Below the pieces are notes generated by a model. The model saw nothing but the letters and a program-made list of their open reading frames with translations, searched no databases and was not told the DNA's origin. A stretch of DNA of 22,584 nucleotides from an uncultured Clostridia bacterium (lineage in GTDB: Bacteria > Bacillota_I > Bacilli_A > RF39 > UBA660): positions 1 through 22,584 of the forward strand of contig CAMZBG010000019.1 of NCBI GenBank assembly GCA_947304495.1, in the 5' to 3' direction. Positions 837 through 21,405 of this stretch are shown here, piece after piece (the first letter of the stretch is position 1; every line of letters begins with the position of its first letter). The position numbers and the translations under genes were made by a program.

Positions 837-1913
837 ATGGAAAAAGTAATTGTTAGATTAGAAAATTTTAGTAAAAGTTTTGGTAAAAAGGAAGTTATAA
901 GCAATATAAACTTGGATGTTTATGAGAATGAGTTTATAACTTTTTTAGGTTCATCAGGTTGTGGAAAAACGACTATTTTGAGGTCTATATCTGGTTTGGA
1001 TAATCCAACAAGCGGAAAAGTATATATTGATTCAGTTGATGTTACTAATTTGGAGGCACCTCAAAGACAAGTTAATACAATATTCCAAAATTATGCTTTA
1101 TTTCCATTGATGACAGTTTATGATAATATTGCATTTGGACTTAAAATGAAAAAGGTTGATAAGAAACAAATAGATAAGCGAGTGCATGAAATGCTAGATC
1201 TTGTTCATTTAGAAGGATATGAAAATAGATATCCTAGAGAATTATCAGGTGGTGAACAGCAAAGAGTATCTTTAGCTAGAGGACTTATCAATAAACCAAA
1301 AGTTTTACTTTTAGATGAGCCTATTTCAGCATTAGATTTGAAACTTAGAAAAGAAATGCAAATAGAACTTAAAAGATTACAAAGAAAATTAAAAATAACT
1401 TTTATATATGTTACTCATGATCAAGATGAAGCATTATCAATGAGTGATAGAATTGCTATTATTAAGAATGGAAGAATAGAACAAATAGGTAAACCTTGGG
1501 AACTATATGATACACCAAAAACTTTGTATGTTGCTTCGTTTATTGGAGATGCTAATATATTTGATTCTAAGGTAGTTAAAGTAGATGAAAAGAAAAATTT
1601 AGTATATTTAAATAATAATGTAGTTGGGTATATAGATGGCCGTAGTTATAAAATAAAAGATAAAGTAAAATTTGTAATTAGACCTGAAAATATTAAAATA
1701 TCACGTACTCGTAAAAAAGAAAATGGTACAGTTGGAATTATTGATGAACTAATATATGATGGATCTAATACTAATCTTATTGTCGATGTAGAAAATAAAC
1801 CTATTAAGGTCTTGATTTTTGGTAATGATGTCAGATATGAATTAGGACAAAAACTATACTTATATTGGGATATTGAAGATGTAGTTATCTTTGGTGATAA
1901 TAATGAAAAATAA
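837..1913 (+). CDS. potA: Spermidine/putrescine ABC importer, ATPase PotA
   Basis: Cytoplasmic ATPase that powers polyamine uptake through PotB/PotC. At 358 residues it has the usual length. Visible motifs are the Walker A GSSGCGKTT (residues 38-46), Q-loop FQNYALFP (83-90), ABC signature LSGGEQQ (136-142), Walker B LLLDEP (157-162) and switch histidine THD (193-195). A C-terminal TOBE-type regulatory domain follows from about residue 235, with the RPENIKIS stretch typical of PotA/MalK-type ATPases. One small oddity is FPLMTV where this family usually has FPHMTV. The start ATG at 837 has a GTGTGAT SD just upstream. It is the first gene of the operon, and its 3' end overlaps potB by 11 nt when potB starts at 1903. 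The family could in principle serve another solute, but the PotD-like protein downstream supports polyamines. Confidence 0.95.
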   Translation: MEKVIVRLENFSKSFGKKEVISNINLDVYENEFITFLGSSGCGKTTILRSISGLDNPTSGKVYIDSVDVTNLEAPQRQVNTIFQNYALFPLMTVYDNIAFGLKMKKVDKKQIDKRVHEMLDLVHLEGYENRYPRELSGGEQQRVSLARGLINKPKVLLLDEPISALDLKLRKEMQIELKRLQRKLKITFIYVTHDQDEALSMSDRIAIIKNGRIEQIGKPWELYDTPKTLYVASFIGDANIFDSKVVKVDEKKNLVYLNNNVVGYIDGRSYKIKDKVKFVIRPENIKISRTRKKENGTVGIIDELIYDGSNTNLIVDVENKPIKVLIFGNDVRYELGQKLYLYWDIEDVVIFGDNNEK

Positions 1914-2748
1914 GATATATAAATGGCTATTTACAATACCGGTAATTATCTATAGTATAGTTTTGATATTATTACCACTGGTATATATATTTATCATTAG
2001 TTTTTATAAGAGTGATTCTTATGGAGGAATGATACATATATTTACTTTAAACAATTATATTCAATTATTTAATGTTGTCTATTTAAAAATATTTACACAG
2101 TCAATTATTATTGCATTAGTAGTAACTTTTATATGCGTTTTAGTATCTTATCCGTTTGTCTTAGCTGTTAGTCATAAGAATAAGATATTACAAAAGAAAT
2201 TGATTACTTTAGTTATGATACCATTTCTTACTAACTCTTTAATTAGAATGTATGGTTGGATAGTATTACTTAGAAAATCAGGAGTTATAAATACTTTGTT
2301 ATTAAACCAAGGATTTATTAGTAATCCACTTAAACTTATGTATAACAATTTTGGAATAATTGTTGGTATGGTATATACGCTTATTCCTTTTATGATACTT
2401 CCACTTTATAGTTCTGTATCAGCAATAGATTCTAGAATATTAGAAGCTTCTTATGATTTGGGAGCTAATAAATGGAAAACTTTTTGGGAGATAATTATTC
2501 CGCAAACAAAGCCGGCATTATTTAATGGATCACTTATGGTCTTTACACCAGCACTTGGATATTTCTTTATTGTCGATGTTTTAGGTGGCGGAAAGATTAT
2601 GATTTTAGGTAATTTGATTAAAAATCAATTTTTAACCGCAAGAAATTGGCCTTTTGGTGCCGCTATTTCAGTATTTGTATTAATAATTACATTTGCTATT
2701 ATTGGGGTATATAGAAAAAGTGGCGGTAAATTAGAGGACTTGGGGTGA
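1903..2748 (+). CDS. potB: Spermidine/putrescine ABC importer, permease PotB
   Basis: Inner-membrane permease with about six hydrophobic segments, the first at residues ~7-30. The cytoplasmic EAA loop that docks on the ATPase is clear (EASYDLGANKWKTFWEII, about residues 180-197). I chose ATG 1903 over an in-frame TTG at 1891 because GGTGAT at 1893-1898 sits 4 nt before it, giving 281 residues. It overlaps the end of potA by 11 nt, which suggests translational coupling. Its own TGA stop lies inside the SD of potC. Family members (PotB/PotH) form a heterodimer with PotC/PotI. Confidence 0.93.
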   Translation: MKNKIYKWLFTIPVIIYSIVLILLPLVYIFIISFYKSDSYGGMIHIFTLNNYIQLFNVVYLKIFTQSIIIALVVTFICVLVSYPFVLAVSHKNKILQKKLITLVMIPFLTNSLIRMYGWIVLLRKSGVINTLLLNQGFISNPLKLMYNNFGIIVGMVYTLIPFMILPLYSSVSAIDSRILEASYDLGANKWKTFWEIIIPQTKPALFNGSLMVFTPALGYFFIVDVLGGGKIMILGNLIKNQFLTARNWPFGAAISVFVLIITFAIIGVYRKSGGKLEDLG

Positions 2749-2752
2749 TACG

Positions 2753-3544
2753 ATGAAAAACAATAGATTTATAGATAATTTGTGTCTAATATTGGTGTTT
2801 ATTTTCTTGTTTTTGCCAATTGTTATTTTAATTGTATTTTCATTTAATACTTCGAGACTTAATATTGTTTTTGAGGACTTTACTTTAAATTGGTATAAGG
2901 AATTAATGCATAATAAAGTTTTATTAGGAGCTTTAGGTAATACATTACTAGTTGCTATTACTAGCACATTGGTATCAACTATAATTGGTACTATTTCAGC
3001 TTATGGGCTTAAAAAATATAACTTTTTTGGTAAAAAATTAGTAAATGAATTATTATATATTCCAGTAATAATACCTGAGATAGTGTTAGGAATATCACTT
3101 TTATGTATTTATTCATTTATGAAATTAGAATTAGGAATGTTTAGTTTAATTCTTTCACATATTGCGTTTTCAATACCATTTGTTATCATAAATGTCAATA
3201 GTGCAATTGAAGCAATGAATCCACATATCGAAGAAGCGGCAGCTGATCTTGGGGCTAGTAAATTAAAAACATTTTCAAGAGTAGTTTTACCTAGTTTAAT
3301 GCCTGGAATTATGTCTGGGGCTGGACTTGCGTTTACACTTTCTTTAGATGATGTTGTTATCAGTTATTTTACGGCTGGCCCAGATAGTAATACATTACCG
3401 CTTCAGATATTTTCAATGATTAAATCGGGAGTTACACCAGATGTAAATGCACTAATTACAGTAATGTTATTGATGATATTTATCGGTTTATTTATATCAA
3501 TGAGTTTTAGTCTAAGAGCACTAAAGAAAGAAGGTGCTAGATGA
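2753..3544 (+). CDS. potC: Spermidine/putrescine ABC importer, permease PotC
   Basis: Second permease of the importer, 263 residues with about six membrane segments. The EAA docking loop is EAAADLGASKLKTFSRVVLP (about residues 160-179). It starts 4 nt after the potB stop, with the SD GGTGAT (2744-2749) overlapping that stop. It ends in an ATGA overlap with potD, so potB-potC-potD should be translationally linked. The LSLDDVVISYFTAGP stretch in its last third is typical of PotC/PotI permeases. Confidence 0.93.
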   Translation: MKNNRFIDNLCLILVFIFLFLPIVILIVFSFNTSRLNIVFEDFTLNWYKELMHNKVLLGALGNTLLVAITSTLVSTIIGTISAYGLKKYNFFGKKLVNELLYIPVIIPEIVLGISLLCIYSFMKLELGMFSLILSHIAFSIPFVIINVNSAIEAMNPHIEEAAADLGASKLKTFSRVVLPSLMPGIMSGAGLAFTLSLDDVVISYFTAGPDSNTLPLQIFSMIKSGVTPDVNALITVMLLMIFIGLFISMSFSLRALKKEGAR

Positions 3545-4569
3545 GAAAAAAACTAATTGTTTTAATGATAATTATTTTATTATGTACAGGTTGTAGGGAA
3601 GATAAAAAGATAAGAGAATTAAATGTAATGAATTGGTCTAGTTATATTCCTAGTAGCGTTATAAGTGATTTTGAAAAAGAAACAGGAATAAAGGTCAATT
3701 ATATGACTTATTCATCTAATGAAGAATTATTAGCTAAGATATCGGTAGCAAAACCAGGAACTTACGATTTGATATTTCCTAGTGATTACATGGTAGAAAT
3801 TATGACTAATAGGGGTCTAATTCAAGAAATTGATAAAAGTAGGATAAAAAATATTCATAATTTAGATTCAGAATATATGAATATGGACTATGATAAAGGT
3901 AATAAATATACATTACCATTTATTGCTACTTCAACAGTAATATCTGTCAATAGAGACTATATAACAGATGAAATAAAAAGTTATAATGATTTATTAAATC
4001 CAGATTATAAAGATGAGATAGTTTTGATTGATGATCAGCGAATAATTATTGGAATGGCACTATTAGCTAATGGATTTGATATGAATTCAACTAATGAAGT
4101 AGAACTTAGAATAGCTAAAAATTGGTTATTGAAATTGAAAGATAATATAAAGGCTTACGATAGTGATAGTCCTAAGAATTTCTTGATATCAAAAGAAGCT
4201 ACATTAGCAGTTATATGGAATGCCGAAGGGGCTCTTGCTAATATGGAAAATAGTAGTATCGAGAATCTTGTTCCAGTTGAAGGAGTGGCACTTAGTACTG
4301 ATAATTTTGCTATTCCAAAAGGGGCAAAAAATGAAAGTGAATTATATGAATTTATCGATTACATATTAAGACCTGAGGTTATGACAGCAATTATTGAATC
4401 TTATCCATATAAGAGTATTAACATTGCTTCATATGATTATTTGGGAAATGACTATATTAATAACAATGCTGCTAACTTTGGTAGAGAAGTTGTAGAAACA
4501 GGCCATTTTGTTAAAAATATTGGGGAATATGTATCAATGTATGACAAAGTGTGGGCTGAAATAAAATGA
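3541..4569 (+). CDS. potD: Polyamine-binding lipoprotein PotD
   Basis: Extracellular, membrane-tethered substrate-binding protein that captures polyamine and hands it to PotBC; 342 residues, the family norm. The N-terminus is a lipoprotein signal with lipobox LCTGC, so the mature protein starts at Cys18. The mature region opens with the classic family sequence LNVMNWSSYIP, followed by FEKETGIKVNYMTYSSNEEL and YDLIFPSDYMV. The start ATG overlaps the potC stop (ATGA) and is preceded by AAGAAGGTG. Whether it prefers spermidine, putrescine or another amine cannot be read here. The agmatine pathway operon immediately downstream makes putrescine or agmatine plausible. Confidence 0.93.
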   Translation: MRKKLIVLMIIILLCTGCREDKKIRELNVMNWSSYIPSSVISDFEKETGIKVNYMTYSSNEELLAKISVAKPGTYDLIFPSDYMVEIMTNRGLIQEIDKSRIKNIHNLDSEYMNMDYDKGNKYTLPFIATSTVISVNRDYITDEIKSYNDLLNPDYKDEIVLIDDQRIIIGMALLANGFDMNSTNEVELRIAKNWLLKLKDNIKAYDSDSPKNFLISKEATLAVIWNAEGALANMENSSIENLVPVEGVALSTDNFAIPKGAKNESELYEFIDYILRPEVMTAIIESYPYKSINIASYDYLGNDYINNNAANFGREVVETGHFVKNIGEYVSMYDKVWAEIK

Positions 4570-4586
4570 AAATGGATGGTGGTATT

Positions 4587-5261
4587 ATGAGTGAAGTAAA
4601 AAAATATTTTAAGGAATTAAATAAATTTGATATTTGTTTACTTAGTGCAGCTGTTATTCTAATATTAGGTGTAGGCGCAATTCTTAAATGTAATTTTTTA
4701 ACAATTATATGTGCATTTATTGGATTCTTTTCGGCATTTAATCAAGGAAAAGGAAAAGTTATTGGGCAAATAATAGGATTAGCTGTATGTGTGTTATATT
4801 CAATTGTATCTTATCAGAATAAATATTATGGAGAAGTAATAATTTATATAGTTATAATTCTTCCTTTGTATTCGATTGGAATATACACTTGGATGAAGAA
4901 TAAAAATAAGGAGAGTTCTAGAGTAAATCAAAGCGATATATCAAAAAAAGAATGGTTGATTATTGCACTATTAAGTATGCTATTATACTATTTGTTATAT
5001 TTGCTATTAAAATACTTTGATACAAGTAGTCTATATATATCAACACTATCAATGGTAATTAATTTAATTGCGACATATTTATTGGTTAGAAGAAGCAGAT
5101 ATAGTTTTCTATTTTATATAGTTAATGCTGTTATATTATTTACTTTATGGATTATACCAGTTATTGATGGCGATATAATGCAAATACCACTTGTTTTTGA
5201 TGCATTATTGTTATTTGCAAATGATATTTATGCACTTAAAAATTGGATTAAGAATAAATAA
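4587..5261 (+). CDS. PnuC-family vitamin transporter (nicotinamide riboside type)
   Basis: A 224-residue integral membrane protein with about seven hydrophobic segments. Length and topology fit PnuC, which moves nicotinamide riboside (relatives move thiamine or riboflavin) by facilitated diffusion with intracellular trapping. Family-like signs are an early FSAFNQGKGKVIGQIIGL segment, a central YTWMKNKNK loop after the fourth helix, and a C-terminal FANDIYALKNW segment resembling the NDxYxxxxW end of PnuC. The open frame extends up to ATG 4566, which overlaps potD. ATG 4587 has the better SD (GGTGGT, 4579-4584) and gives a standard N-terminus. No terminator separates it from potD, so it is the last gene of the pot operon. 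The substrate is not deducible. Confidence 0.75.
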   Translation: MSEVKKYFKELNKFDICLLSAAVILILGVGAILKCNFLTIICAFIGFFSAFNQGKGKVIGQIIGLAVCVLYSIVSYQNKYYGEVIIYIVIILPLYSIGIYTWMKNKNKESSRVNQSDISKKEWLIIALLSMLLYYLLYLLLKYFDTSSLYISTLSMVINLIATYLLVRRSRYSFLFYIVNAVILFTLWIIPVIDGDIMQIPLVFDALLLFANDIYALKNWIKNK

Positions 5262-5293
5262 AAGGATTTCTTATTAAGAAATTCTTTTATTTT
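5260..5293 (+). terminator. Intrinsic terminator of the pot operon
   Basis: 13-bp stem with one G-U pair (AAAAGGATTTCTT / AAGAAATTCTTTT, loop ATT) followed by ATTTTT. It starts at the pnuC stop codon. Confidence 0.88.
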
Positions 5294-5299
5294 TGAAAT

Positions 5300-5333
5300 A
5301 ACAATTGATAATTGTTTTTTATTGTGGTAAAAT
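5300..5333 (+). promoter_or_regulatory. Promoter of the agmatine operon with an inverted repeat over the -35
   Basis: TTGATA (5305-5310), a 17-bp spacer and TAAAAT (5328-5333). The -35 lies inside a perfect 7-bp inverted repeat, AACAATT-GAT-AATTGTT (5300-5316), which could be an operator for a dimeric regulator. Downstream, within the predicted leader, AGCC/GGCT (5347-5350 / 5356-5359) can form a small hairpin. Confidence 0.65.
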
Positions 5334-5391
5334 TTAATTATAAAATAGCCCGATTGGCTTTGTGTCTAGGGTAGGAAGGAGAGATATTTTA

Positions 5392-6378
5392 ATGCCAAAA
5401 AGAGACTACATTACGACATTGGACTACACAAAAGAAGAACTTTTAGATATCATTAATTTAAGTATTCTTATTAAAAAGAATATTAAAGCAGGATATCCAC
5501 TGAATGTTTTGTATCATAAAACATTAGGAATGATTTTTGAACAAGCATCAACAAGAACAAGAGTATCTTTTGAAACAGCGATGACACAACTAGGTGGCCA
5601 TGCTCAGTATTTAGCTCCAGGTCAAATACAACTTGGAAAACACGAGAGTATGAAAGATACATCAATTGTGTTGTCTAGACTTACAGATGTAATAATGGCA
5701 CGTGTACAACAACATAATACTGTCGTTGAATTAGCTAAATATTCAACTGTACCAGTACTTAATGGTATGAGTGATTGGAATCATCCAACACAAGAAATGG
5801 GTGATATTATCACTATATTTGAACACATGCCAGAAGGTAAGACCATCGAAGATTTGAAAGTTGTTTTTGTTGGTGATTGTACACAAGTATGTGCATCACT
5901 AATGATGATGATTACTAAAATGGGCGGACATTTTGTACATTATGGTCCAAAAGATTTTCAACTTCGTGGTGAATACTTAGATATTGCAAAAGAAAATTGT
6001 CGTGTCAGTGGTGGAAGTTACTTAATTACTGATAATCCAGAAGAAGCTTTAAAAGATGCCGATATTATCTATACGGATGTATGGTATGGATTATACGAGG
6101 CAGAACTTCCAAAGGAAGAAAGAATGAAGATTTTCTATCCTAAGTATCAGGTAAACAGAGAAATGATCAACAAGTGTGCACCAAATGTTAAATTTATGCA
6201 TTGCTTACCAGCAACTCGTGGTGAAGAAGTTACTGATGAGATTATGGATGATCCAGAAGTATCTATTTGCTTTGATGAAGCAGAAAATCGTCTTACAGCC
6301 ATGAGAGGACTACTTGTATATTTGATGGGCAAGAAGGATGAAACTATCGAGATATGTAATAAAAATTTAGGAAGGTAA
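5392..6378 (+). CDS. ptcA: Putrescine carbamoyltransferase
   Basis: Converts N-carbamoylputrescine plus phosphate to putrescine and carbamoyl phosphate; cytoplasmic, 328 residues. The carbamoyl-phosphate site STRTR (residues 53-57), HPTQ (131-134) and HCLP (270-273) are intact. Where ornithine transcarbamylases have the ornithine-binding SMG loop, this protein has [12 protein letters not shown] (229-240), the arrangement seen in putrescine carbamoyltransferases. Together with aguA downstream this sets the specificity. I chose ATG 5392 because AGGAAGGAGAG (5373-5383) is correctly spaced; an in-frame GTG at 5362 lies before that SD. It is the first gene of a ptcA-permease-aguA operon. Synonyms are ptcA and aguB. 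An ornithine carbamoyltransferase is the alternative, but the context argues against it. Confidence 0.92.
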
Positions 6379-6381
6379 AAA

Positions 6382-7764
6382 ATGAAAACAAAGAAAAAAT
6401 TTAGATTATTTGATGCCATATTAGCTACAGTATGTATTACTTTGGTTGCAGAATCAGTAATGCCTACAGCTGCTATTGGTAACTCACAATATTTCTGGTG
6501 GATATTCTTAATTATCGGGTTCTGCTTACCTTATGGTATGATTTCAGCTGAACTTGGTACAGCATATCCAAGCGAGGGGGGAATGTATGATTGGGTTGAA
6601 AGAGCATTTGGTTCTAAATGGGCTTCAAGAGTTGCATGGAATTATTGGATAAATTTCCCATTGTGGATAGCATCACTTGCAGTTGCCATTACAGATGTCA
6701 TAGCTGGAATATTTGATATTGAATTATCATTGTTTTGGCTATTAGTTATACAACTAGGATATACTTGGTTAGTTAGTTTACTAGGAACACAAAGAATTGG
6801 TGAAAGTAAATGGATTGTTAATATTGGAACATTCTTTAAAATACTTTTCATGGTAGGACTTGGATTCTTAGGAATTTATGTTTATGTTAAGACTGGAGAA
6901 AGTGCTAATCCAATTGAAAGCTTTGCAGATTTACTTCCAAGTATGGATTTAGTTGGTTTATCTTTCTTATCAATTATTATATTTAACTTCTTAGGATTTG
7001 AAGTTATTGCTACATTTACTGATGATATGAAAAATCCTAAAAGAGAAATACCAAAAGCTTTAATTATGGGTGGTGCATTAATGGCATTATTCTATGTACT
7101 TCCAGCAACTGGTATCAATATTGCTATGAGTATGGAAGATGCTGAAGCTAGTGGTATTACAGAGAGCTTTATGATTTTACTTACTAAACTTGGTATGGAT
7201 GCAAATTTAGTAAGAATTATAGTTATTATCGTAGGACTTATGTTTATTTATACGATGATTGCTAATATTGTATCTTGGTCATTTGGAGTTAACTCTGTTG
7301 CTAAATATAGTGCAGATGATAAAGGATTACCAGTAATATTTGGTAAAATTAATAAAGAAGGTGTTCCTTATATGGCATCTATCCTTAATGGAGCTACTGC
7401 ATCTGTAGTTATTATTGTCGGAGTAATCTTAGATAGATATACAAATGTAAGTAATCTATTCTGGACATTCTTGTCATTAAGTTTGGTTACACTTCTTGTA
7501 AGTTATATCCCAATGTTCTTAGCTTTCTTAAAATTAAGAAAAGTAGATGGAGATGCAAAGAGACCATATAAAGTACCTGGTGGTAACGGATTAATAAAAG
7601 TATTTGCTTTAGTACCATTTGTATTATTAATATTAGGTATAGTATTTACAATGTTTGGTGACTTTAGTATGGAATACATAAGTGATAATCTACCACTTAT
7701 CGTTGGTGTTATTATATCATTTATAATTGAAGAAATAGTCGTATCTGATGTAACACCTAATTAA
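6382..7764 (+). CDS. aguD: APC-family amino acid/amine antiporter (agmatine/putrescine type)
   Basis: A 460-residue polytopic membrane protein of the amino acid-polyamine-organocation superfamily with about 12 hydrophobic segments. Diagnostic features are an early TM1 stretch with SVMPTAAIG, the conserved [23 protein letters not shown] segment after TM2 (positively identifying the APC fold), and [26 protein letters not shown] around TM6. It starts 3 nt after the ptcA stop, and its SD AGGAAGG overlaps the end of ptcA. Sitting between ptcA and aguA, it matches AguD of lactic acid bacteria, which exchanges external agmatine for internal putrescine. The substrate is inferred from context, not from residues. 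Confidence 0.85.
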
Positions 7765-7796
7765 TAATAATATTCAAAAGAATATGGAGAGGTAAT

Positions 7797-8903
7797 ATGA
7801 AAAGATTAAAAAGTACTCCTAGAAGAGATGGATTCAGAATGCCTGGTGAATTTGAAAAGCATGCAGGAACATACATAATTTGGCCACAACGACCTGACAA
7901 CTGGAGAAATGGTGGAAAACCAGCTCAAAAAGTATTTGCTGAAGTAGCAAATGTAATTGCAAAATATGAACCAGTAACTATTTTGGTTAATCAAGATCAG
8001 TATGTAAATGCTAGAAATATGCTAGGACCTAAAGTTAGGGTAGTTGAGATGAGCAACAACGATTCTTGGGTAAGAGATAGTGGACCATCTTTTGTAGTTA
8101 ACGATAAGGGTACCGTTCGTGGTATCGATTGGGGCTTTAATGCTTATGGTGGCCTTGTTGAAGGTATATATTATCCATGGGATTTTGATGATTTGTTAGG
8201 CGGTAAGATATGTGAACTTGAAAGTGTCGATGCATACGATGCCGGTGACTTTATATTAGAGGGTGGATCAATTCATGTAGATGGACAAGGAACAGCTATG
8301 GTTACTGAAGAATGTTTGCTTGCTCCAGATCGAAATCCTTCAATGACTAAAGAACAAATCGAGAAAAAATTAAGAGACTATTTGAATATTGAAAAAGTAC
8401 TATGGATTCCTAGAGGAGTTTATGGTGATGTTGATACGAATGGTCATGTTGATAATATGTGTAATTTTGTTAAGCCAGGCGAAGTTGTCCTTGCTTGGAC
8501 TGAAAATACCAAAGATCCACAATATGAAAGAAGCATTGAAGCATATAATTATTTGAGTAATGAAAAAGATGCTAAAGGTAGAAAATTAAAAATACATAAA
8601 TTATGTTGTCCTTCACCTATAGTTATTACAAAAGAAGAAAGTGGTGGAGTAGACGTTGTTGAAGGTACTTTGCCAAGAAAAGAAGGCGACAGGATGGCAG
8701 GATCTTATGTAAACTATTATACTGGAAATGGTTTTATTGCTTTACCAGTGTTTGGTGATCCAAATGATAAGAAAGCAGTTAGATTATTAAGAAAACTATA
8801 TCCAGGTAGAAAGATAGAAACAATATCTGCTAGAGAAATCTTATTAGGCGGTGGAAATATTCACTGTATTACTCAACAAGTACCTAAAGGTAATGGAAAA
8901 TAA
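7797..8903 (+). CDS. aguA: Agmatine deiminase
   Basis: Hydrolyses agmatine to N-carbamoylputrescine and ammonia; cytoplasmic, 368 residues, a member of the guanidino-group-modifying (pentein-fold) family. The catalytic cysteine is in GGGNIHC, and by my count it is Cys357, the position known from Enterococcus agmatine deiminase. The catalytic histidine is in DTNGHVDN. Substrate-pocket motifs [10 protein letters not shown] and [13 protein letters not shown] are intact. GGAGAGG (7786-7792) is well spaced from ATG 7797. It is the last gene of the operon and is followed at once by a terminator, so no carbamate kinase gene is co-transcribed. Identity is near certain. Confidence 0.95.
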
Positions 8904-12548: not shown

Positions 12549-13619
12549 GTGAAAAAAATATTTTTAAGTTTATTTTTAATTGGTTTATTTTTGACAGGAT
12601 GTGCTAAACATAATGAAAAGGAAGTGTTAAAAGAATTTCAGACAAAAGTAAATGATACTAATTCATACTATTTATCTGGTGAAATGGAATTAGTGAATAA
12701 TGAAGATGTATATAATTATAAGATAAGTGTATCATATAAAAAAGAAGACTATTATAAGATTGAATTAGTAAATGTAATAAATGATCATAAACAGATTATT
12801 TTGAGAAATGATGAAGGAGTATATATTGTAACACCATCACTTAATAAGAGTTTTAAATTTCAGAGTGATTGGCCATATAATAATTCTCAAGTATATCTTT
12901 TAGCAAGTTTATTAGATGATATTCTCAATGATGAAAAGAGAACATTTGAGGATAGTAAGGAAGGTTATATCTTTACTTCAATGGTAAACTATCCAAATAA
13001 TGAGAAATTAGTTAAACAAAAAATATATTTTGGTAAAGATTATTTGCCAACAAAAGTTGAAGTATTAGATGCTGATGGTAAAGCTCAGATTACAATGAAG
13101 TTTGATAAAATTGATTTAAAGACGGAATTTAATGATACTTATTTTGATTTAAATGCTATTTTAGATACAAATACGGTAACAGAAAATAAAAAAGAAGATG
13201 AAAAGAAAAATGATAATACTGAATCACAAGAACCAAATAGTGAAGAAAAGAATGATATAAAAACAAAGGAAACAGCAACAATTGATGATATAATTTATCC
13301 AATGTATTTACCTGTCAATACGTATTTGACAGGTCAAGAAAAGGTGAATACTGATGAAGGTGAACGATTAATATTGACTTTTACTGGAGATAAATCGTTT
13401 GTTTTGATGGAACAAGTAGCAGAATATAGTAATACACCTGAGATAATTCCAACATATGGCGATGTTGAATTGATTGGTTCATCATTGGCAGTAATCAATG
13501 ATAATTCAGCTAATTGGTTCGATAATGGAATAGAATACTATCTTGTAAGTGATGTTCTTAGTACAGATGAAATGTTACAAGTAGTTAGATCGATTAGTGT
13601 CCTTCCAGTAAGTAAATAA
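12549..13619 (+). CDS. Lipoprotein with LolA/YdcC-like N-domain and DUF4367-like C-domain
   Basis: 356 residues. A lipoprotein signal ends in the lipobox FLTGC (Cys18). Residues ~20-200 form a beta-rich domain that reads like outer-membrane-lipoprotein-sorting-protein relatives of Gram-positives (YdcC/GerS type): YYLSGEMELVNNEDVYNYKI, repeated strands, and YLPTKVEVLDADGKAQITMKF. A charged low-complexity linker (~205-245, Lys/Glu/Asn-rich) joins it to a second domain (~250-356) with PMYLPVNTYLTGQEKV and SVLPVSK, similar to DUF4367 domains. The start is GTG 12549, with SD GGTGAA upstream; no better ATG is in frame. A TATAAT at 12514-12519 may be its -10. The molecular role is unknown; envelope stress or germination roles of relatives cannot be transferred. 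Confidence 0.7.
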   Translation: MKKIFLSLFLIGLFLTGCAKHNEKEVLKEFQTKVNDTNSYYLSGEMELVNNEDVYNYKISVSYKKEDYYKIELVNVINDHKQIILRNDEGVYIVTPSLNKSFKFQSDWPYNNSQVYLLASLLDDILNDEKRTFEDSKEGYIFTSMVNYPNNEKLVKQKIYFGKDYLPTKVEVLDADGKAQITMKFDKIDLKTEFNDTYFDLNAILDTNTVTENKKEDEKKNDNTESQEPNSEEKNDIKTKETATIDDIIYPMYLPVNTYLTGQEKVNTDEGERLILTFTGDKSFVLMEQVAEYSNTPEIIPTYGDVELIGSSLAVINDNSANWFDNGIEYYLVSDVLSTDEMLQVVRSISVLPVSK

Positions 13620-18450: not shown

Positions 18451-18467
18451 TAAATTTGTTTGCTATT

Positions 18468-18494
18468 AAAAATTTGACAAAATGTTAAATTTTT
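18468..18494 (+). terminator. Hairpin after gatB that contains the OLE promoter -35
   Basis: 12-bp stem (one G-U) AAAAATTTGACA / TGTTAAATTTTT with loop AAA, 18 nt after gatB. It ends in T5 and can serve as the gatB terminator. The -35 of the next promoter (TTGACA, 18474-18479) lies in its left arm, so it could alternatively act as a DNA operator. Confidence 0.6.
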
Positions 18495-18502
18495 GATATA
18501 AT
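18474..18502 (+). promoter_or_regulatory. Consensus sigma-A promoter of the large noncoding RNA
   Basis: TTGACA (18474-18479), exactly 17 bp, then TATAAT (18497-18502). Both hexamers match the consensus perfectly, making this the strongest promoter in the window by eye. The predicted start is 18508-18511. Confidence 0.85.
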
Positions 18503-18509
18503 TATAACT

Positions 18510-19092
18510 CGATTGATGGCACATTATTCTAGTCAAATTGATTCGTTATGAAGACGGGGATAAATTACCGTTAAAGAGCAAATCTATGAAACCGCTTGTG
18601 TTTGCTTTGGATGCCCAATCTGGGGTGGATGCAGGCGATGAGAATAGTGGATAGAATATAATGGCATATATTTAATTCCATTATTCGTGGAGACCTATCT
18701 TTGTGATAAATCTATACGGAAACTGATGATTTGTTACGAAATAGGATTAAACCTGTTAGGTGATTATAAGTTATCTACAGTGTAGCTTGTCTTGAGTGAA
18801 AGGTTTGGGATTGGCATTAGATATTAAGATGTTTGGCCAAATATCTTAATATTATACCATGAAATTACTTTTGCAAAAGAGTACTAATAACGATGCGTTG
18901 GTGAGGAAAACTCCTAGAGTGCATTATGATATAGGATTGCAGTGGGAACTAAGTGGTAATCAAGTCGTATGATGTGGAAACACCGTACTGTCTTCTTTAA
19001 AGGGGAACCGCAATACTGGTAACGGTATGTAGAAGATAGGGAAATCCTACTTGACCTAAGTCTCAAAGTTAACTATATCGATAAGCCATTAG
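18510..19092 (+). ncRNA. ole: Probable OLE RNA (ornate, large, extremophilic)
   Basis: A gene-free stretch of about 585 nt that is less AT-rich than its surroundings and has many stop codons in all frames. It is full of possible helices. Examples are TGATGGC (18514-18520) with GCCATTA (19085-19091) closing the ends, CTAGTCAA (18529-18536) with TTGACCTAAG (19051-19060, bulged), ACGG/CCGT (18554-18557/18568-18571), a 15-plus-bp hairpin at 18820-18853, and CTGTCTTCT (18988-18996) with AGAAGATAG (19031-19039). OLE RNAs are around 600 nt and are commonly encoded just upstream of oapA. Here the next gene is an OapA-like protein, which is the main basis for the call; size, position and promoter agree. 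OLE forms a membrane-associated ribonucleoprotein with OapA and other proteins, and in Halalkalibacterium halodurans it is linked to stress and magnesium tolerance. I could not align the sequence to the family model. ROOL or GOLLD RNA is the alternative, but neither is associated with OapA. Confidence 0.82.
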
Positions 19093-19112
19093 TTTTTTTC
19101 TTGGAGGATATG

Positions 19113-19634
19113 ATGAAAAGTAATTATAGATGGGCATGTATTGTAACAGTTTTAGCGTTTGTATTGTCGTTAGTGATGTCACTATTAGTAACAACAGCAC
19201 TAGAAAATGTTACACTTATAACATCTATTGTCATTACTTTTCTTTTCATTTTATTAGGAATAATATTTGATATTATTGGCGTATCTGTAACAAGTGGCGA
19301 TGAAGTTGCATTTCATTCGATGAGTGCTAGAAGAATACGAGGAGGACGTGTAGGTGTAAAATTAATTAAGAATGCTCCACAAGTATCTAGTATTTGTTGT
19401 GATGTTGTTGGAGATATATGTGGAATAATATCTGGAACAGCAGGAGTAACTATTGTTATGTTGATTACAATGATGACTAATTGGAATTTTCTTTTAGTTT
19501 CATTAATCGTTACATCGTTAATATCATCATTGACAATTGGTGGTAAGGCTCTTGGTAAAAATTTAGCAATTAATAAAAGTACCGAAGTGGTTACAGTAGT
19601 AGCTAAAATATTATCAATTTTTAGTAAAAAATAA
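19113..19634 (+). CDS. oapA: OapA, OLE RNA-associated membrane protein
   Basis: 173 residues with four predicted membrane helices (about 8-28, 37-57, 99-118 and 124-148). Between helices 2 and 3 is a basic cytoplasmic-type segment, FHSMSARRIRGGRVGVKLIKNA, followed by CCDVVGDICGIISGTAG. The run GVSVTSGDEVAFHSM ... RIRG ... KNAPQVSSICCDVVGDICGIISG matches the conserved core I recall for OapA, the protein that binds OLE RNA and carries it to the membrane. SD GGAGG (19103-19107) fits ATG 19113 best; ATG 19110 and TTG 19101 are in frame but too close to or ahead of the SD. It is separated from the RNA gene by a T7 tract (19093-19099). It is probably partly co-transcribed with the RNA, as no other promoter is visible, and is followed by a terminator. 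Confidence 0.85.
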   Translation: MKSNYRWACIVTVLAFVLSLVMSLLVTTALENVTLITSIVITFLFILLGIIFDIIGVSVTSGDEVAFHSMSARRIRGGRVGVKLIKNAPQVSSICCDVVGDICGIISGTAGVTIVMLITMMTNWNFLLVSLIVTSLISSLTIGGKALGKNLAINKSTEVVTVVAKILSIFSKK

Positions 19635-19641
19635 CATTATT

Positions 19642-19664
19642 AGACTGAAATATAGTCTTTTTTT
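19642..19664 (+). terminator. Intrinsic terminator after oapA
   Basis: Short stem AGACT / AGTCT with a 7-nt loop, followed by a run of seven or more T's interrupted once. The stem is weak but the U-tract is strong. Confidence 0.7.
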
Positions 19665-19704
19665 CTTTTTAGCAAACAAATATTATAAAAATAGATAAAA
19701 ATAT

Positions 19705-19733
19705 TTGACAAATAGGCTTCCTTGTGTTATTAT
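19705..19733 (+). promoter_or_regulatory. Promoter of the surface-protein operon
   Basis: TTGACA (19705-19710), a 17-bp spacer and TATTAT (19728-19733). The predicted start is near 19740, about 25 nt before the first gene, whose SD is GGGGGA. Confidence 0.8.
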
Positions 19734-19764: not shown

Positions 19765-21405
19765 ATGTACGAAGAAAATAGAAGATTTAGCTGGACTAAT
19801 CTATTTATTAAGATAATTATCGTAATCATTTTCATATTGTTCACAATATGGTTACTATCTTTATCTACAAGAGGTATGTCTAATAAAATCGATGTTCTTA
19901 CTGACAGTGTCTTTTCTGATAATATTGATAGGATGAAGGAAGTAGGAAAGAGTTATTTTACTACTGAGAGATTACCAAAAGAAGTAGGAGACGTTAAAAT
20001 ACTATCACTTCAAAAAATGTATGATCAACATCTTTTACTTGAAGTCAGAGATAAGTATGGAAAGGCTTGCTCTGCAGATAATTCTTATGTTTCAATCGAA
20101 AAACTTGAAAAAGAATATCAGATGAAAGTATACCTAGAATGTGGCAATGAAAGAGACTACATAAAAGTCATTATGGGTTGCTACAATTACTGTGATACTG
20201 ATATATGTGAGAAAGATGAGAAAGAAGAGAAACCAATTGAAAAAGCATTAGAATATGAATATAGCAGATCTACTGCTGGTGCTTGGGGGCCATGGGGAGC
20301 ATGGACTAATTGGTCAACAAATGCGGTTACAAAAACTAATAGTCGTGAAGTAGATAGTAAGATTATTAACGAAACATATACTTACGATAAAGCAGTAACA
20401 CAGGCTAAGTATATTGGAGATGTTACTTGTGATGCTAAAATAGGTGACTATAAATTAGTTTCAAACAGTAATGGTGTATGTAAGTACTCAAAAGGAGCTA
20501 CAAGTACACAAGAGCCAACTTGTCCAACTATTTCAGGGTACACAAATACTGGAGTAAATGAAACAACATGTAGTTATAAGGCAAATACTCCAGACACAAC
20601 AAGTCCACAATGTAAAGACTTGTCTGGATGGTCTAAAACAAGAAGTGGTTTTACTTGCACTTATAAAAAATCAACAACTACTTATGCAAATCCAAGTTGT
20701 AAAGACTTATCTGGATGGTCTAAAACAATAAGTGGTTTTACTTGCACTTATAAAAAATCAACAACTACTTATGCAAATCCAAGTTGTAAAGACTTATCTG
20801 GATGGTCTAAAACAAGAAGTGGCTTTACTTGTAAGTATACAAGAAGTTATAAGGAAGCAGTTGGTGTAAAAGTTATATCTTCATGTGATGGATGTACTAC
20901 TGAAGTTCAAACTGTATATGAAACAAAGTATGAGACTAAAACTGGTAACAAGGCAACTTGTCCAACTGGATATAAGCCAACTGGAAATACTTGCTATAAA
21001 ACAACAACAACGACAGATACAGCAACTGCGACTTGTCCACAAGGTTATTCAAGGTCAGGTGATAGCTGTGTAAAATATGCTACTAAAACAGCAAGTGTAG
21101 TTTGTGATACGGCAAATGGCTATGAATTATCAGGAAATAGCTGTGTAAAGTCAACTACAAAGACAATGACAAAAGATGCTGTATGTGCGGTAGGATATAA
21201 TAAGAATAATAAGTGTTACAAAGATGAGACAACTTATGTAGAAGAAACTGGTACTAAGAGTGTAACATACTATAGATATAGAACTAGAAATTATAGTGGA
21301 GGCTCAACCGATTATAAGTGGAGCATTTCAAATAATGATAAAAATTTACTAGATGCTGGTTATAAATTAACTGGTAAAACAAGAGAAATTGTGGGGGGGA
21401 AATAG
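19765..21405 (+). CDS. Membrane-anchored protein of repeated Cys-pair modules
   Basis: 546 residues, family not recognised. Residues 1-13 are cytoplasmic, followed by one hydrophobic helix (~14-34, IIIVIIFILFTIWLLSL). A globular region (~35-155) contains several Cys. A Trp-rich stretch WGPWGAWTNWS (about 172-182) superficially resembles thrombospondin type-1 repeats. From about residue 217 there are some nine copies of a motif C-x(2-5)-G-[YWD]-x(5-10)-C-x-[YK], for example CPTGYKPTGNTCYK and CPQGYSRSGDSCVK. Three of these are near-identical 29-residue units. The paired Cys suggest disulfides outside the membrane, so a surface or adhesin-like role is possible but unproven. The Thr/Ser/Lys-rich linkers suggest an extended stalk. 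It is first in an operon with the two genes that follow. An ATG at 19761 is out of frame and reads only six codons. Confidence 0.7.
   Translation: MYEENRRFSWTNLFIKIIIVIIFILFTIWLLSLSTRGMSNKIDVLTDSVFSDNIDRMKEVGKSYFTTERLPKEVGDVKILSLQKMYDQHLLLEVRDKYGKACSADNSYVSIEKLEKEYQMKVYLECGNERDYIKVIMGCYNYCDTDICEKDEKEEKPIEKALEYEYSRSTAGAWGPWGAWTNWSTNAVTKTNSREVDSKIINETYTYDKAVTQAKYIGDVTCDAKIGDYKLVSNSNGVCKYSKGATSTQEPTCPTISGYTNTGVNETTCSYKANTPDTTSPQCKDLSGWSKTRSGFTCTYKKSTTTYANPSCKDLSGWSKTISGFTCTYKKSTTTYANPSCKDLSGWSKTRSGFTCKYTRSYKEAVGVKVISSCDGCTTEVQTVYETKYETKTGNKATCPTGYKPTGNTCYKTTTTTDTATATCPQGYSRSGDSCVKYATKTASVVCDTANGYELSGNSCVKSTTKTMTKDAVCAVGYNKNNKCYKDETTYVEETGTKSVTYYRYRTRNYSGGSTDYKWSISNNDKNLLDAGYKLTGKTREIVGGK
20611..20833 (+). 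repeat. 87-bp in-frame tandem repeat, about 2.6 copies
   Basis: Units start at 20611, 20698 and 20785 with TGTAAAGACTT, exactly 87 bp (29 codons) apart. They encode CKDLSGWSKT, then [R/I]SGFTC, a Thr/Lys-rich linker and NPS. The third copy is truncated after its second Cys. The near-identity at DNA level points to recent expansion or contraction by recombination or slippage. Confidence 0.95.

Follow-up and report, generated by a model that had tools for sequence, protein, structure and literature searches.

An OLE RNA–oapA locus in a probably small-genome, RF39-like bacterium and the size range of OLE among its relatives

The locus and its surroundings

The window, by which we mean the whole 22,584-nt stretch analysed here (contig CAMZBG010000019.1), carries on its forward strand a gene for OLE, to our knowledge one of the largest conserved RNAs of bacteria with no biochemical function yet assigned, followed directly by oapA. 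The features are listed below, with P-numbers assigned by helix order and loop sequence after the available text of PMC12265935 and PMC12286853.

15250-18450, forward: gatC, gatA and gatB, upstream of OLE (Pfam, NCBIfam)
18474-18502, forward: sigma-A type promoter, TTGACA-17-TATAAT, 12 of 12 consensus matches, TG before the -10 element
18500-19104, forward: OLE RNA (Rfam RF01071)
18553-18572, forward: P4 with an A-rich loop (projected structure; stem name inferred from order and loop)
18593-18637, forward: P5/P5.1, loop GCCCA at 18613-18617 (projected structure)
18642-18686, forward: P6/P6.1, loop with GGCA (projected structure)
18694-18780, forward: P7 (18694-18745) and P8 (18753-18780), both present (Rfam match, projected structure)
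18789-18884, forward: P9 arm with the palindromic loop L9.3, GGCC at 18835-18838 (Rfam match, projected structure)
18924-19083, forward: long-range helices of domain 2 (Rfam match, covariation; names P12.2-P14 inferred)
19103-19634, forward: oapA, Shine-Dalgarno sequence GGAGG at 19103-19107, ATG at 19113, 173 aa, stop ending at 19634
19642-19665, forward: weak terminator-like hairpin and T run 3' of oapA (fold -3.9 kcal/mol)
19765-21405, forward: gene for a 546-aa protein without a Pfam or NCBIfam family, own promoter-like site at 19705-19733

When the whole window was searched with the Rfam covariance models, 18500-19104 matched OLE with 371.1 bits (E = 6.7e-106), membership being defined by a score above the RF01071 gathering score of 50 bits, and the match runs end to end through model positions 1-616 of 616. 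Besides the score, a size of about 600 nt with a covarying structure and the presence of oapA nearby mark this RNA as OLE. The family is further characterised by high RNA abundance and by a place at the membrane within an RNP. No other Rfam family reached its gathering score in the window, and ROOL and GOLLD are therefore absent from it; that one of these large RNAs has been mistaken for OLE has next to no probability and we regard it as ruled out, because the whole OLE model is matched and the neighbouring protein is OapA. The earlier note, which had proposed an OLE RNA–oapA locus from the letters alone, had named a rival large-RNA model and the family of the 173-aa protein as the points to check, and its proposal came through both. 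It had also described a structured, non-coding stretch of about 585 nt: 144 of the 154 model pairs are standard pairs in the window (structure projected from RF01071) and no open reading frame of at least 60 aa is listed inside OLE on either strand, but the length is 605 bases. The OLE stretch has a GC content of 36%, against 29.5% for the window. The window RNA is a full-length OLE, a known class in a type of lineage from which OLE has already been reported; to call it divergent, as had been done, is too strong because it is full length.

The promoter is as perfect as previously described, and 23 of 34 aligned OLE genes have, at the same position, a promoter that agrees with the consensus at 11 or all 12 bases. 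Given its location, the transcript would start at about 18509, and the start at 18460 proposed earlier takes in promoter DNA. The hairpin behind oapA was considered as a terminator and rejected, as its fold is not significant (z -0.96) and it was missed by the consensus scan.

Eight bases separate the end of the OLE model (19104) from the oapA start codon (19113). The encoded protein contains both OapA core motifs quoted in the earlier note, which had rightly placed a four-helix protein here, and four long helices are predicted (residues 2-30, 35-61, 88-122 and 126-154). Its D97 and D101 form a DxxxD motif that is invariant in 63 of 63 aligned sequences and that, according to the available part of PMC11332333, separates OapA from CNNM domains, which lack it. 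The predicted fold is CNNM-like, in agreement with OapA, and OLE lies upstream of an OapA homologue in all 11 related loci given. On the strength of the motif, the predicted fold and the upstream OLE in relatives, the protein belongs to the OapA family. Searches of Pfam and NCBIfam returned no match at 0.001, and a search of the PDB by sequence returned a chance match alone (E = 0.64). OapA proteins are characterised by four transmembrane helices and by a group of positive residues on the cytoplasmic side; the present protein has a cluster of positive residues at R73, R74, R76, R79, K83 and K86. Unlike the MpfA, CorB and CNNM transporters, it has DxxxD, adjoins the gene of an RNA partner and, at 173 aa, leaves no room for CBS and CorC domains.

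The gatCAB neighbourhood pointed out earlier is real and, among the loci compared, confined to the closest relatives. Across 80 loci, the order gatB–ole–oapA with the downstream 546-aa gene is common to L001, L002, L004 and L006; L003 and L005 are cut off on the upstream side, yet share the 546-aa gene, which is thus found in all six closest loci. Neither the gat genes nor the 546-aa gene was found in the other 74 of the 80, within the stretches compared. Downstream of oapA lie two proteins without family assignment. The 546-aa protein has repeated segments and a tryptophan-rich stretch, WGPWGAWTNWS, which we take to resemble thrombospondin type 1 repeats. Elsewhere in the window, 837-8903 holds what by eye appear to be potABCD-like polyamine transport genes, then genes for a carbamoyltransferase, an amino-acid antiporter and an agmatine-deiminase-like protein, and 12549-13619 encodes a lipoprotein whose similarity to GerS stays below the cut-off (58.2 bits versus 175). 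A gerS-like match also lies near OLE in L056 and L072.

The nearest loci stand on MAG contigs titled Bacilli, Erysipelotrichaceae, Tenericutes, Clostridia, Clostridiales and, in one case, Methanosphaera. The last title belongs to the MAG of L001, which holds the nearest OapA relative in the genome collection; because this contig carries gatAB–ole–oapA, it is bacterial and evidently mis-binned. According to their records (Goat_Jejunum, Goat_Colon), L001 and L004 come from goat jejunum and colon, and the genomes of the relatives measure 0.8-1.4 Mb, in line with the gut-dwelling, small-genome lineage suggested before. Mollicutes are wall-less and mostly read TGA as tryptophan. In the window, TGA is the stop codon of 3 of the 19 genes checked, and genes for a polysaccharide deacetylase and a beta-lactamase-fold protein, both wall-related, are present. 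Since TGA remains a stop and wall-related genes are kept, the lineage is not strict Mollicutes, and the earlier description as AT-rich and Mollicutes-like holds for size and AT content alone. Judging by how RF39 has been described in print, the lineage is probably of that kind.

Conserved structure of the RNA

The structure was examined in an alignment of 34 OLE RNAs, comprising the window, the five nearest loci and the 28 longer hits from the 58 genomes of the family to which L004's genome belongs (its 10 short hits were excluded). With the structure that the model gives the window, 88.0% of the cells are standard pairs, compared with 39.7-44.2% when the partners are slid by 1-3 columns. Changes on both sides occur in 113 of the 154 pairs, and the double-change cells number 788, against 142-233 after sliding; none of 500 shuffles reached any observed pairing measure. 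As the structure comes from the window's own model match, the comparison favours the unslid version, and the statistics ignore kinship; the double changes are numerous nonetheless.

Domain 2 of the window RNA contains two GNRA-capped hairpins (18967-18988 and 18989-19038), and its P7, P8 and P9 show no large deletion against the Rfam model. A 2024 study (PMC11332333) had already described OLE from reduced-genome gut lineages (RF39 and TANB77) in which OapB and OapC are largely missing, and in this respect the window's lineage resembles variants 1 and 2 of that study. According to its available part, variant 1 (TANB77 type) has shortened P7, P8 and P9 and often misses the OapB site at the end of P13, while P7 and P8 are absent from variant 2 (RF39 type). 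Unlike variant 2, the window OLE keeps P7 and P8, and compared with the variants described there it also retains a long P9 arm and both GNRA-capped hairpins. Its 371 bits would fall within the variant-1 score band of PMC11332333, the model of which differs from that of Rfam.

Protein partners among related genomes

Co-occurrence was assessed in the 58 genomes of L004's family, which are relatives of the window and not its host, and whose completeness is not given, a limit on every absence reported for them. OLE is present in 38 and OapA in 36, all of the latter among the former, so that 36 genomes have both, two have OLE alone, none has OapA alone and 20 have neither. The two genomes with OLE alone are G028, where it lies beside a contig end, and G044. 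In G044, OLE (L145) has no adjoining oapA, and none was found elsewhere in that genome.

OapB was found in 0 of the 58 genomes. The query was the KOW protein encoded between map and infA in Caldanaerobacter, whose PDB match is OLE-associated protein B (7k9b, E = 1.5e-12), and the profile was positive in 4 of 4 Clostridia and in 0 of 6 small-genome relatives. No KOW gene stands between map and infA in L004's genome, where map overlaps infA. L7Ae-type OapC was likewise found in 0 of 58, by a search that was positive in 7 of the 14 controls, B. subtilis among them. The core in this lineage, as judged from the genomes of relatives, seems to be OLE and OapA without OapB or L7Ae-type OapC. In the survey, as far as its available part goes, OapB and OapC occur in about 60% and 45% of OLE species, respectively, and are not obligatory (PMC11332333). 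The ribosomal protein bS21 is encoded in 55 of the 58 genomes, and the motif CCTCC/CTCCT (bS21 SD/ASD mimic) is absent from 34 of 34 aligned RNAs, a weak test in that, among 67 wider matches of which some were misread, a similar pattern turned up in only 4.

OLE and MpfA are reportedly anticorrelated, and MpfA is said to have been proposed as a replacement for OLE. Full CNNM (MpfA-like) proteins occur in 2 of the 58 genomes, namely in one of the 38 with OLE and in one of the 20 without it; a weak CNNM match in G066 (20.2 bits) lies below the cut-off. Because an MpfA-like protein is missing as well from 19 of the 20 genomes without OLE, a simple replacement does not fit, and because CNNM proteins are nearly absent with or without OLE, the reported anticorrelation explains no loss of OLE here.

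Apart from the 20 OLE-less genomes of the family, no OLE was seen in two of seven genomes of L004's genus, which suggests that OLE is dispensable in related bacteria, bearing in mind that these genomes may be incomplete. The 20 absences might also be taken to mean that the window's OLE is a decaying relic, a non-working gene in a shrinking genome, an explanation to which we give very little credence given the compensatory changes, the conserved promoter and the intact oapA. The apparent decay of OLE in L004's genus (G072), where the hit falls into three pieces, was an RNA running to the contig edge and was dismissed.

OLE and oapA share a contig in 35 of the 36 genomes with both and lie on different contigs in G013. 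The gap between them is 9-255 nt in 30 of the 35 same-contig pairs and 511-2523 nt in the remaining five; the tandem ole–oapA order is usual, not required. The prevalence of short gaps, together with the 8-base gap in the window and a T run just 5' of the oapA Shine-Dalgarno sequence, is what one would expect if OLE were mainly a long 5' leader controlling oapA in cis, with no particle of its own. We consider such a role improbable, since it agrees neither with the five wide gaps and the separate contigs of G013 nor with the conservation of the whole RNA, dimer loops included, and since the H. halodurans OLE acts as an RNP (PMC12265935).

We therefore favour, with a probability of about 85% for the locus and the mechanism taken together, a genuine and probably working OLE–oapA locus of a small-genome Bacilli/RF39-like bacterium. 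OLE would be made from its own strong promoter, as the sequence and its conservation suggest, and would fold into the known architecture, P4 to P9 and domain 2 all being present by covariance match and covariation. By homology to the clostridial dimers, it may pair with a second copy through P4, the P5.1–P6.1 kissing loops and the palindromic L9.3, a possibility supported by the conservation of the loops. OapA, a membrane protein with a predicted CNNM-like fold, would bind OLE and hold it at the membrane, by analogy with H. halodurans, in which OapA binds OLE and places the RNA there (PMC12265935, PMC11332333, PMC9723947, PMC12054373). The most likely task of such a particle is divalent-cation and stress homeostasis; H. 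halodurans strains knocked out for OLE or OapA tolerate ethanol, cold and raised Mg2+ poorly (PMC11332333, PMC12265935). In the least certain step, OapA might constitute the membrane or transport part, with OLE replacing the regulatory domains of MpfA-type transporters. With the OLE–OapA complex of H. halodurans and Clostridia the window shares the whole RNA model, an oapA gene directly downstream and DxxxD; it differs in its gatCAB neighbours and in that its relatives lack OapB and L7Ae-type OapC.

Size classes and dimer contacts

OLE matches were obtained in 141 of 241 genomes of the order, scanned with strict filters. The 142 hits comprise 93 of at least 560 nt, 5 of 525-559 nt, 41 of 470-524 nt and three shorter ones (381 nt, 378 nt and a 302-nt piece close to a contig start), and natural OLEs span lengths of about 618 to 378 nt. 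All 10 aligned short forms of L004's family lack P7 and P8; these short relatives of the window thereby match variant 2 (RF39 type), the hallmark of which is the absence of both helices in the available part of PMC11332333. One of the ten, in G045, additionally lacks P5 and P6. Miniature forms of 378-381 nt without P5-P8 were located in three related genomes.

L144:1663-2043, forward: miniature OLE
L142:2016-2393, reverse: miniature OLE
L147:2169-2546, forward: miniature OLE

The miniature also occurs in a second species of G045's genus (2 of 2 genomes), and in G085 it has a different upstream gene. As the three are 90-95% identical and each is followed 4-6 nt downstream by an intact oapA, they represent one lineage and not three inventions. 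They score 134-139 bits with the Rfam OLE model, below the 235-bit floor of the published survey, which used a different model (PMC11332333, available part); this may explain why the literature text searched yielded no description of a miniature OLE. A compensated pair read in the P9 stem of the miniature was withdrawn as wrong. A second OLE locus in G035, cut by the contig end on its 3' side and poorly matched at its 5' end, was not counted. In G234, two full-length OLE hits (L148 and L149) lie on different contigs, possibly because the bin is mixed.

The solved clostridial OLE dimers are bridged by P5.1–P6.1 kissing loops and by the palindromic L9.3 (PMC12265935, PMC12286853), and a dimer contact at P4 has also been described (PMC12265935). 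Both the P5.1 loop (GCCCA) and the P6.1 loop (GGCA(T/C)) occur in every one of the 122 long, mid and short OLEs, including all 43 RNAs of the short class, and in 0 of 3 miniatures. Of the 71 long forms, 59 have a P9 arm of 49 nt or more; among the 40 short forms parsed, the arm of 36 is no longer than 34 nt. No arm was parsed in seven of the 71 long forms, one of the 8 mid forms and three of the 43 short forms, and four long arms were misparsed at 0-3 nt. Among the four longer arms of the short class, GATC is present in L128 and L153 and absent from L130 and L178. The miniatures have a P9 arm of 25 nt with GATC in its loop.

The L9.3 cores were counted by eye, as three automatic parsers misplaced the loop in many arms; the automatic tally for the 71 long forms was 20 GGCC, 9 GTAC, 3 TATA, 2 ATAT, 1 AGCT, 1 TCGA and 35 without a core. 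Inspection of the 79 long and mid RNAs gave GGCC in 47, AGCT in 13, GTAC in 9, TCGA in one and TATA within GTATAC in one; the loop is not self-complementary or is ambiguous in four (L118, L220, L224 and L227), and another four (L107, L106, L096 and L188) have no long P9 arm. A self-complementary core is thus found in 71 of 75 arms, and 24 of the 28 loops that depart from GGCC stay self-complementary, although a strict rule is contradicted by the four exceptions, and kinship keeps the sequences from being independent. GGCC, GAUC and AGCU are the cores reported in the available part of PMC12286853, in which GUAC and UCGA were not found. That L9.3 changes in sequence and yet mostly remains self-complementary supports RNA dimerisation as a selected feature.

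These patterns suggest a tentative reading, to which we would give somewhat less than even odds, in which OLE is a modular RNA dimer trimmed bridge by bridge in this lineage. Full-length forms would keep both loop–loop bridges; forms without P7 and P8 would keep the P5.1–P6.1 kissing and mostly lose the long P9 arm; and the miniature would have lost both P5.1–P6.1 partners together, while keeping the palindrome GATC in its short P9. For a specialist, the points to pursue are the miniature OLE and the exchange of one dimer bridge for another. A lineage that has OLE and OapA without OapB or OapC, with RNAs of about 618 to 378 nt, provides a natural deletion series for what the particle needs. 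If bridge-by-bridge trimming is true, the irreducible particle would consist of OLE and OapA, with P4, a trimmed P9 and domain 2 and without OapB, OapC or the k-turn region, and the constraint that persists would be dimerisation via at least one loop–loop bridge.
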